Positions 29,741-61,613 of a DNA stretch of 64,000 bases are shown piece by piece. Location of the stretch: assembly GCA_028279545.1 (NCBI GenBank), contig JANQNN010000012.1:62001-126000 (forward strand). Reading direction: 5' to 3'. Within the stretch, counting starts at the first letter, position 1, and each line of letters begins with the position of its first letter. Under the pieces are notes generated by a model. That model saw only the letters and a list, made by a program, of their open reading frames with translations, was not told where the DNA came from and made no database searches. The position numbers and the translations under genes were made by a program. This DNA is from Nitrosopumilaceae archaeon (lineage in GTDB: Archaea; Thermoproteota; Nitrososphaeria; Nitrososphaerales; Nitrosopumilaceae).

Positions 29741-30496
29741 TTAATCACTGTTTTCTTCGTTTTTCTTTTTATTGAATTTGTTGTATCCTTCTTGGTTGTA
29801 TCCATCTTTGTCGTAACCTAGGTGATTATATCCTAGTCTATCATACCCCCTACTATCAAATCCATCTTCGTCAAATCCGTCTAAATCATACCCATTTTCA
29901 TCGTATCCATTTTCATCATACCCTTTCCTATCATACCCATTTTCATCAAATCCGTCTTTGTTATAACCGCCTTTGTCGTATCCTTTTTTGTCATACCCGT
30001 CTATGTCATAACCGTCTTTGTTAAACCCGTTTTTGTTATAACCGTCTTTGTTAAACCCGTTTTTGTTAAAACCATCTATGTTAAAACCATCTTTGTCGTA
30101 TCCTTTTTTGTTAAACCCATCTTTATCAAAAGCAATCTTTGTATCGATGTGAATTCCATCTAGAGAAAAACCTCGGATATCATACCCATTTCTGTCGTAT
30201 CCTTTTTTGTCGTATCCTTTTTTGTTAAAACCATCTTTGTTGTAACCCTTGATATCAAATCCATCTTCGTCATACCCTTCTTTGTACCCGTTTTTGTCGT
30301 ATCCTTTTTTATCAAATCCTTTTTTGTTAAACCCTTTTTTGTTAAACCCTTTTCTGTCGTATCCTTTTTTGTTGTATCCATTCCTATCGTATCCATCTTT
30401 ATCATAGCCCTCTCTGTCGAACCCTTTTTTGTCATACCCATCTAGGTCATATCCATGCTCATCAAACGTATGAGTAAATCTATCAAACAACCCCAT
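29741..30496 (-). CDS. pentapeptide-repeat protein, ([YF][DN]xxG)n
   Basis: 251 residues, about 45 repeats of a five-residue unit of form [Y/F][D/N]-x-x-G (for example YDKDG, FNKKG, YDENG), interrupted once near the middle by a non-repeat block (IHIDTKIA) and with one four-residue unit (YKEG). The start (MGLFDRFTHTFDEHG) has no signal peptide. Such YDxxG proteins are known from scattered bacteria, archaea and eukaryotes, but I know no function. Regular Gly with alternating aromatic and Asp/Lys residues suggests a solenoid or a charged self-assembling fibre, perhaps calcium-binding through the Asp residues (inference). It lies between repeats B and C. Confidence 0.8.
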   Translation of the reverse strand: MGLFDRFTHTFDEHGYDLDGYDKKGFDREGYDKDGYDRNGYNKKGYDRKGFNKKGFNKKGFDKKGYDKNGYKEGYDEDGFDIKGYNKDGFNKKGYDKKGYDRNGYDIRGFSLDGIHIDTKIAFDKDGFNKKGYDKDGFNIDGFNKNGFNKDGYNKNGFNKDGYDIDGYDKKGYDKGGYNKDGFDENGYDRKGYDENGYDENGYDLDGFDEDGFDSRGYDRLGYNHLGYDKDGYNQEGYNKFNKKKNEENSD

Positions 30497-59493: not shown

Positions 59494-60480
59494 GTGTCAA
59501 GTACAATTGAAGTGAAAAAGACCCTTGTTTTTGTAATTTTTATTTTATTTTCATTAATTTTTGTTGGAGGAATATTGGGAGTTACTTTTGATGTAGCAGT
59601 TGGTGCTGGACAGGAATTGTCATATCCATCTTGGTTAGTTATTTCCTATCTTGCTGGACTTTCAATGATAGTTTTGCCTTGTACGCTTCCCCTTGTTTTC
59701 ATTATTGTTCCCTTGAGCATGGGTAAAGGTGGAAAAAAAGGACTTTCTATGGCCGCTTTGTTTGGTGCAGGTCTTACCATAACAATAATGTTTTATGGAT
59801 TAGGAATTGGGGTTTTAGGCCAAACTACAGAACTTGATCAAATCTCCATGTACATGTTTTTGGTTGCAGGAATAGCAGCATTTCTTTTTGGACTATCACA
59901 AATTAAATTATTGGATTTAAAACTTCCATCATACTCTGGAACGCCAAAATTTATTCAAGAAAGAGGTGATTATTCAAAATCCTTCTTCATGGGTCTTTTA
60001 TTAGGAAATGCCGGAGTTGGTTGCCCAAACCCGATGTTTTACTGGCTTTTAATTTATGTTGCAGGTACTGGAAGTGCTGAGGTAGGTGCAAGTCTTGGTT
60101 TGGTCCATGGGGTTGGAAGAGCCATTCCGTTAATTTTGTTATCAGTCCTTGCCATTGTGGGAATAAATTCAACAAAAAGTCTGACCTCAAAACGAGAGAA
60201 TATTGAAAAAATAACTGGATGGATGTTAATTGTAATTGGATCATTTTTAATAATTCAAGGAATTCCTGGGGGCCATGAATGGTATGAATCAACCATCATC
60301 CATCTGGCATGGAATAATTTAGTTTCAATTTCGCCAATCCCACCTGAATTCCATATGGGTGAGCATCTTCATGATTATGATACAATAATTCCACAAGAAA
60401 TAGTTCCCATTTTTCTAGCAGGTTTGATAATATTTCCCATCATATGGTATTTTACCAAGAAAAGAGAACAGCTATTATGA
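59494..60480 (+). CDS. CcdA/DsbD-type thiol transporter membrane protein
   Basis: 328 residues from a GTG. Six to eight membrane helices with the two conserved Cys of the CcdA/DsbD core, IVLPCTLPLVFII (about 66-78) and NAGVGCPNPMFYWLL (about 172-186). The protein carries electrons across the membrane by a dithiol relay. A long outside loop after helix six holds several His and Glu (PPEFHMGEHLHDYD), possibly metal-binding. It overlaps the YHS gene by 4 bp, which overlaps a redoxin gene by 4 bp. Confidence 0.88.
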   Translation: MSSTIEVKKTLVFVIFILFSLIFVGGILGVTFDVAVGAGQELSYPSWLVISYLAGLSMIVLPCTLPLVFIIVPLSMGKGGKKGLSMAALFGAGLTITIMFYGLGIGVLGQTTELDQISMYMFLVAGIAAFLFGLSQIKLLDLKLPSYSGTPKFIQERGDYSKSFFMGLLLGNAGVGCPNPMFYWLLIYVAGTGSAEVGASLGLVHGVGRAIPLILLSVLAIVGINSTKSLTSKRENIEKITGWMLIVIGSFLIIQGIPGGHEWYESTIIHLAWNNLVSISPIPPEFHMGEHLHDYDTIIPQEIVPIFLAGLIIFPIIWYFTKKREQLL

Positions 60481-60611
60481 AAGATCCTGTTTGTGGGATG
60501 GAAATAGACAAAGGTGATACACTTTTCCACAAAGGAAAGCAATATCATTTTTGTTGTGCAACATGCAAATGGGCTTTTGAAAAAAATCCAGAACAGTTCA
60601 TAGAATCATGA
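60477..60611 (+). CDS. YHS-domain metal-binding mini-protein
   Basis: 44 residues, almost exactly one YHS domain: KDPVCGMEIDKGDTLFHKGK, then QYHFCCATCKWAFEKNPEQF. Its Cys set (C at the start, CCxxC in the middle) is the heavy-metal-binding type found in copper and mercury resistance proteins. It overlaps both neighbours (ATGA at each end), placing it physically between the thiol transporter and the redoxin. It is short enough to be easily missed. Confidence 0.88.
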   Translation: MKDPVCGMEIDKGDTLFHKGKQYHFCCATCKWAFEKNPEQFIES

Positions 60612-60829
60612 AAATAGAAATTCTTACTACTCTTGGTTGTTTAAATTGCAACAAGCTTGAAAAAATGTTGGATAAACTTGGGGTATCTTACGATTTGATA
60701 GACGTTTCCATAAAACCTGATTATTTAAAAAAATATCCAATATTTACCGCACCAGGATTGGTGATAAATGATAAATTGGAATTTTCAGGAATTCCAAATT
60801 TTAAAGATTTAAAGAAGATTTTCAATTAA
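60608..60829 (+). CDS. small thioredoxin/glutaredoxin-like protein
   Basis: 73 residues: KIEILTTLGCLNCNKLEKML with a CxxC at C11 and C14, then SYDLIDVSIKPDY and the cis-Pro region FTAPGLVINDKLEFSGIPN. It is a minimal thioredoxin fold, cytosolic with no signal. As the third gene of the overlapping set it probably feeds electrons to the CcdA-like protein. Confidence 0.88.
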   Translation: MKIEILTTLGCLNCNKLEKMLDKLGVSYDLIDVSIKPDYLKKYPIFTAPGLVINDKLEFSGIPNFKDLKKIFN

Positions 60830-60870
60830 TCTGGTAATGTTTTTTATAATGAAAGGATTGGAAATTAAAC

Positions 60871-61122
60871 ATGACAGATTATTCAATGGATGAAAAGATG
60901 ATACTTGTTCAATATGCCATAAAAAAATATGAAAAAGAAGAAGTTCTTTTTGAAAAATTAAAATCAATTTTATCAGAAAAAGATATTCAAAGAAATATTG
61001 ACACATTAATTGGAACGCAAAAAGTCCGCAGGATTGGACCAGAAATCCTCCAAAACAATGAAAGTCATACTGAATTACCAGACTTGCCAGAAAATCTAAA
61101 ACAAGTTATCAACCAACTTTAG
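60871..61122 (+). CDS. small helical protein downstream of redoxin operon
   Basis: 83 residues: MTDYSMDEKMILVQYAIKKY, then EKEEVLFEKLKSILSEKDIQ, RNIDTLIGTQKVRRIGPEIL and an acidic Pro-rich tail (ELPDLPENLKQVINQL). The first 60 residues look like a winged helix or helical adaptor. No family recognised. It is 41 bp after the redoxin gene on the same strand and may be part of the operon. Confidence 0.6.
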   Translation: MTDYSMDEKMILVQYAIKKYEKEEVLFEKLKSILSEKDIQRNIDTLIGTQKVRRIGPEILQNNESHTELPDLPENLKQVINQL

Positions 61123-61160
61123 TAGTAATTATTAAATCACTTCAAAAATTTAATTAAAAT

Positions 61161-61613
61161 ATGACATACTCCAAATTTTATGCAATAATTTTTCTTAGTC
61201 TAATTGTAGTTTTTTCCACAACAGCTATAAGTTTTGCACACCCTCATCTTGGCCAAGTTCTAATAAATGATCACCTCCATAACTCAGAAACCGAATATAC
61301 TCCAATAAACGGAATAATGGGTTTGGAGAAAACTACGCTCTTATTCCATGCACCTGAGGACAATTCCTTGCCTTGGGGTTTTGTAGAGGGTAAAATAGGA
61401 AATTTTGTTCCAGGATATCCTGTAATTATTCAAATTTATAAAAATGATGAGGCAGTACACTTTGCCCAGACAGATGTAAAAGATGACGGAAGTTACACTT
61501 ACAAATTTAGAGTTTTGAATGTAGAAAACAATCAAAAAACAAAAATTTTTGACGGAGATTATTTTGTGACTATTTTCAAGGTAGTATATCTAAATCAAAA
61601 TAATTTAATTTAA
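61161..61613 (+). CDS. secreted His-containing protein near redoxin operon
   Basis: 150 residues, signal peptide about 1-25 (ISFAHP). The mature part begins HPHLGQVLINDHLHNSETEY, unusually His-rich, then a beta-sandwich-like domain (LPWGFVEGKIGNFVPGYPVI, VKDDGSYTYKFRVLNVENNQ, GDYFVTIFKVVYLNQN). The His cluster suggests metal binding. With the YHS and CcdA genes upstream, a role in metal or copper handling outside the cell is plausible. It overlaps the convergent radical SAM gene by 4 bp. Confidence 0.65.
   Translation: MTYSKFYAIIFLSLIVVFSTTAISFAHPHLGQVLINDHLHNSETEYTPINGIMGLEKTTLLFHAPEDNSLPWGFVEGKIGNFVPGYPVIIQIYKNDEAVHFAQTDVKDDGSYTYKFRVLNVENNQKTKIFDGDYFVTIFKVVYLNQNNLI

Follow-up and report, generated by a model that had tools for sequence, protein, structure and literature searches.

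A linked CcdA-type, YHS and redoxin gene trio in Nitrosopumilaceae, candidate components of a copper-linked thiol relay

Genes and proteins of the locus

The DNA analysed here is a stretch of 64,000 nucleotides (the window) from contig C13 of a Nitrosopumilaceae genome (G000) that encodes archaeal AmoA, the organism thus being an ammonia-oxidising archaeon. Three overlapping genes are found on its forward strand. The first (59494..60480) starts with GTG and codes a CcdA/DsbD_TM-type membrane protein of 328 amino acids, which matches Pfam DsbD_TM with 33.9 bits (cut-off 27.1). It is followed by the gene of a YHS/TRASH-type mini-protein of 44 amino acids (60477..60611; Pfam YHS PF04945, 51.4 bits, cut-off 30.3) and by that of a Thioredoxin_3/glutaredoxin-like protein of 73 amino acids carrying a CxxC motif (60608..60829; Pfam Thioredoxin_3 PF13192, 47.5 bits, cut-off 24.8), named redoxin hereafter. 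The overlaps reported in the initial annotation were confirmed: exactly 4 nucleotides are shared at each junction, the stop codon of the CcdA gene overlapping the YHS start in an ATGA sequence (60477..60480) and the YHS stop codon overlapping the redoxin start in the same manner (60608..60611). A second YHS mini-protein, of a kind that almost every genome of the family has, is encoded elsewhere in the genome, unlinked to the trio (L002; G000:C43:13975-14100). Another ORF of the window (29741-30496, minus strand) codes 251 amino acids composed of repeated units like GYDKKGFDKDGYDRNGYN.

Cysteines C63 and C177 of CcdA are invariant in 47 of 47 aligned sequences and each lies in a different transmembrane (TM) segment. 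Hydropathy analysis detected seven TM segments and missed the one bearing Cys177, whose addition would bring the number to eight. Positive charges in the loops towards the N- and C-terminus predict a cytosolic location for both ends of the chain. The predicted extracytoplasmic loop 259-302 has five histidines, seven acidic residues and neither lysine nor arginine; H270 is invariant while H261 is conserved at 94%. A sequence search against solved structures gave none for the CcdA subfamily to which the protein belongs. In the YHS protein C6, C26 and C30 are invariant and C27 is present in 95% of the relatives; its matches to solved structures were weak and limited to phenol/toluene monooxygenase chains. 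The redoxin has an invariant CxxC (C11 and C14) and no apparent signal peptide.

The database name of the DsbD_TM family in Pfam would assign CcdA to cytochrome c biogenesis. We consider this assignment extremely unlikely because the partner machinery for haem attachment is absent: a search of the 99% complete genome for Cytochrom_C_asm proteins (PF01578; CcsA/CcmC/CcmF family) gave no match while nine of 14 controls were positive. An ArsE/ArsG arsenic system was also rejected, as the scores are far under the curated cut-offs (28.8 vs 62 bits for ArsE; 26.7 vs 200 bits for ArsG).

Two further ORFs on the same strand are neighbours of the trio and not part of it. The distal one (61161..61613) codes an exported protein of 150 amino acids that had been described as His-rich and as directly following the redoxin gene. 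An 83 amino acid-long ORF (60871..61122), overlooked in the initial annotation and without any Pfam or NCBIfam match, intervenes between the two. The protein is exported and four of its histidines, within an N-terminal HPH...HLH motif, cluster at residues 27-40 after the signal peptide; however, with only six histidines in 150 residues the label His-rich is generous. These two ORFs, a radical-SAM gene and an ArsR-type gene constitute a neighbourhood separate from the trio.

Conservation and distribution of the trio

Relatives were analysed in a set of 151 genomes from the same family as the genome of the window (96 of them counted as good genomes), which yielded 78 CcdA-type and 66 redoxin places. 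A CcdA gene is found within 5 kb of 59 of the 66 redoxins, and within 1.5 kb of 57. Linkage of the genes in other ammonia oxidisers, suggested as a check when the locus was first described, is thus strong. The seven redoxin places without CcdA within 5 kb are mostly near contig ends or beside a partial CcdA; two belong to G142 (see below). The spacing between the CcdA and YHS genes is −4 nucleotides in 37 of the 41 loci compared, and the YHS and redoxin genes overlap (−1 to −11 nucleotides) in 38 of the 39 loci having both. Such recurrence across relatives indicates that the 4-nucleotide overlap is not due to chance and, as judged from gene arrangement, CcdA, YHS and redoxin form a real, conserved linked unit. 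YHS domains as such occur in nearly all genomes of the family (140 of the 151), and it is therefore their position, not their presence by itself, that is informative.

Genome G067 has CcdA and YHS in a single ORF at two loci (L072 5977-7101 and L073 5695-6873 (minus)), both adjoining a P1B ATPase gene that itself begins with a YHS domain. Since the C-terminus of CcdA is predicted to be cytosolic, the fused YHS domain would lie on this side of the membrane. YHS and redoxin occupy one frame in L105, although this is a single MAG and could reflect a sequencing frameshift. CcdA and YHS are missing in G142 from the upstream side of the 83-aa ORF, and the remaining redoxin of this genome has CxxC changed to CxxY (L179, G142:C45, 5995-6219, minus strand), as expected for a protein after loss of its partners. 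Some CcdA loci are devoid of redoxin (eight good genomes) and some of YHS. No plasmid-borne relatives were found. When profile A1 was run on genomes sampled across the phylum, matches outside the family at E<=1e-10 were limited to three genomes; of the two that were read, one has CcdA and redoxin, the other CcdA with neither redoxin nor YHS.

Several loci show additional particularities. The CcdA variants of L075 (132-1523, minus strand) and L163 (5001 onward) have an outer loop longer by more than 100 residues, with an insert lacking Pfam matches, and adjoin HMA-CopA, YHS and redoxin being on the far side. In L051 (6941-8032) and L074 (2423-3517) a protein with cupredoxin and ethylbenzene-dehydrogenase-type domains is encoded between CcdA and YHS; its domains were scanned in L051 and assigned by similarity in L074. 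Three contigs deposited under bacterial MAGs (L134, L144 and L153; Amylibacter, Planctomycetota and Saprospiraceae) carry loci that are clearly Nitrosopumilaceae-like and are probably binning errors.

The neighbouring block behaves differently. In L067 its orientation relative to the trio is reversed, many trios have no such block beside them, and G142 has kept it; the 83-aa ORF stays next to the exported protein gene both where the trio is inverted and where CcdA and YHS are lost. Of the 96 good genomes, 86 encode a relative of the exported protein, and 42 of these 86 have no CcdA. Closed genome G046, which has the trio, carries its best relative at 180 kb and CcdA at 1,047 kb (~867 kb apart). 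Many of the matches span only residues ~40-150, which excludes the His motif. The exported protein, whose gene in many genomes is distant from the trio or occurs where CcdA is lacking, was thus ruled out as a component of the thiol/metal device in which it had initially been included.

Among the 96 good genomes, CcdA of the trio kind is present in 47 and absent from 49; redoxin is found in 40. The trio is therefore not needed for ammonia oxidation, and a role central to that process was rejected; contigs labelled as DPANN also carry the module. It is probably a copper-handling redox unit that is not required for ammonia oxidation itself.

Copper context and function of the trio

Regulators combining an Lrp/AsnC-HTH with a TRASH domain (CopT/CopR-like) are encoded within 5 kb of 24 of the 78 CcdA loci where about 0.3 (0.32) would be expected from their genomic density; the significance suggested by the corresponding Poisson probability (P = 2e-36) is overstated because the loci share ancestry and are not independent. 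Their placement relative to CcdA varies (divergent upstream, downstream on the same strand, or downstream on the opposite strand). Such regulators occupy 68 places, of which 29 have a Cu-type P1B ATPase and 24 a CcdA at a distance of up to 5 kb. Cu-type designates here the ATPases that score best for E1-E2; YHS or HMA domains are present in those that were scanned. Genes for a plastocyanin and a DsbA-like protein are directly upstream of CcdA in L064, L065, L066, L068 and others, and divergent versions of the trio are flanked by plastocyanins, DsbA-like proteins and P1B ATPases. The 20 kb around the trio of closed genome G046 (L176, G046:C1:1036000-1055999) code four DsbA-like proteins, a plastocyanin, a multicopper oxidase, an Lrp-TRASH regulator, Met-rich proteins, a ferric-reductase-like protein and an HtrA-type protease. 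A DPANN-labelled contig (L168) groups CcdA, redoxin and YHS with a P1B ATPase, and one labelled Woesearchaeota (L173) has the three trio genes in the vicinity of a YHS-HMA-HMA ATPase. In an unplaced contig (L174) the gene of a CsoR-type repressor comes after those of CcdA and redoxin.

The tentative mention of copper in the initial annotation is supported by these regulators, Cu ATPases and cupredoxins near relatives, but not by the trio of the window itself: no Lrp-TRASH regulator was found near it, no copper gene is adjacent to it in the window, and no E1-E2/P1B ATPase was found in the genome. Copper is the likeliest metal, the link being one of association in relatives; TRASH/YHS domains may also bind other metals. 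Experimental background is available for some of these families. In Pyrococcus copA is under the control of CopR, a regulator with the Lrp-TRASH architecture, and in many archaea CopM, a TRASH protein, serves as a chaperone (PMC7830388). A dsbD-family gene of Nitrososphaera viennensis is among those most raised under copper limitation; its authors proposed an ScsB-like copper binding for DsbD and remarked that the redox counterparts were missing (PMC7785015). For N. maritimus, copper limitation is reported to have left the DsbD-family genes unchanged (PMC7785015), which counts against the copper link only if the gene concerned is the CcdA of the trio.

We favour, with moderate confidence, the view that the trio is a copper-linked thiol electron relay across the membrane. 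In such a relay the cytosolic redoxin would draw electrons from the thiol pool of the cell through its CxxC and reduce the C63/C177 pair of CcdA. CcdA would then pass the electrons on to thiol or copper proteins outside the cytoplasm, for which DsbA-like proteins and cupredoxins are candidates; five DsbA-like proteins encoded in the genome of the window are available acceptors. On the cytosolic side of CcdA, Cu(I) or a different thiophilic metal would be bound by the YHS protein, which would tie the relay to the copper status by serving as a chaperone, buffer or sensor of the TRASH type. The direction of electron flow and the identity of the metal are those that seem most plausible to us, and copper binding by YHS is suggested by its TRASH family and by the neighbours in relatives. 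The compact cross-membrane device linked to a metal that had initially been envisaged is thus retained in its main lines, on account of the linkage of the trio, its fusions and the copper and DsbA neighbours in relatives, but without the exported protein and without a central role in ammonia oxidation. That the device maintains a metal site in the reduced state across the membrane, as was also suggested, is possible; nevertheless, the CcdA-YHS fusion places YHS on the predicted cytosolic side, where it would stay reduced without the help of a transmembrane relay.

Envelope thiol homeostasis is a function typical of the CcdA family. The trio could accordingly serve general thiol homeostasis or disulfide isomerisation in the envelope, with no specificity for copper and with a zinc or iron ion bound structurally by YHS. 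The DsbA-like neighbours, together with the HtrA-type protease in one locus, would fit such a role, but the TRASH regulators and copper ATPases recur in several arrangements and make this explanation quite improbable.

A different proposal, rather doubtful in our opinion, is that CcdA itself carries Cu+ across the membrane, or links such transport to electron transfer, independently of a P1B ATPase. Cu+ would be brought by YHS to the two buried cysteines and received by the acidic outer loop with its histidines, and the redoxin would keep the thiols reduced, the trio replacing CopA in the archaeal cop cluster (CopT-CopM-CopA). The succession of a CopT-like regulator, a TRASH mini-protein and a membrane protein resembles the layout of that cluster (PMC7830388), YHS is found fused to the predicted cytosolic tail of CcdA, and the outer loop combines five histidines, among which the invariant H270, with the absence of Lys and Arg. 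Furthermore, Cu-type ATPases are somewhat less frequent in good genomes with CcdA (11/47) than in those without (22/49; Fisher p=0.03, phylogeny uncorrected); conversely, CcdA is somewhat rarer in genomes with a Cu-type ATPase (11/33 vs 36/63). The redoxin-based test gave p=0.28, also uncorrected for phylogeny. Against this proposal, the two proteins coexist in 11 good genomes and 27 have neither, an electron-carrying CcdA/DsbD would be expected to have just these conserved cysteines in the membrane, the score to the ArsG efflux permease family (NF040495) is far under its cut-off, and the DsbA neighbours favour electron export. If true, it would provide a P1B-ATPase-independent archaeal Cu+ translocator in the place of CopA, loaded from a YHS chaperone.

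Relation to known systems

Ammonia-oxidising archaea rely heavily on copper enzymes. The trio proteins are candidates for copper handling in those of their genomes that, like that of the window, lack P1B copper ATPases. With the CopT-type regulator, DsbA or cupredoxin neighbours that sometimes accompany it, the trio offers candidate redox counterparts and a small set of proteins amenable to testing.

The protein shares with the CcdA/DsbD TM family (PF02683, PF13386) the DsbD_TM match above cut-off and the two invariant membrane cysteines. It differs by an extra first TM segment, by a C-terminal extension (the acidic, His-containing outer loop and the last TM segment), by its partnership with YHS and a dedicated redoxin, and by residing in a genome without a cytochrome c assembly protein. 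The redoxin has the fold family and CxxC of the small thioredoxins MTH895/ArsE and MJ0307, but remains under the NCBIfam cut-offs of both (TIGR00412, 28.8 vs 62 bits; MJ0307, 27.5 vs 92.75 bits).

To our knowledge no YHS protein belongs to the bacterial Scs system. ScsB of that system (cited in PMC7785015) is, like the relay proposed here, a DsbD-type electron carrier connected with copper. In contrast to ScsB, the CcdA chain matches only the TM domain and has no extracytoplasmic thioredoxin-like domains, the redoxin of 73 amino acids being separate. DsbD_a of N. viennensis (NVIE_014160), up under copper limitation, provides a case of a DsbD-family protein of an ammonia-oxidising archaeon responding to copper (PMC7785015); it is likened to the CcdA of the trio at the level of the DsbD family only, given the few sampled out-of-family genomes matched by profile A1. 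The archaeal cop cluster (CopT/CopR, the TRASH chaperone CopM and the P1B ATPase CopA; PMC7830388) has in common with the trio the TRASH/YHS mini-protein and, beside many relatives, the Lrp-TRASH regulator. CcdA and redoxin stand in the place of CopA, and the locus of the window has neither regulator nor ATPase; a CopA-type P1B ATPase next to a TRASH chaperone is present beside some divergent relatives and was not found in the genome of the window. No paper treating the YHS domain and CcdA together was found in a literature search. While CcdA-type relays as such are already known, the novelty lies in the combination of a probable relay of this type with a TRASH mini-protein and a private redoxin in a copper setting.
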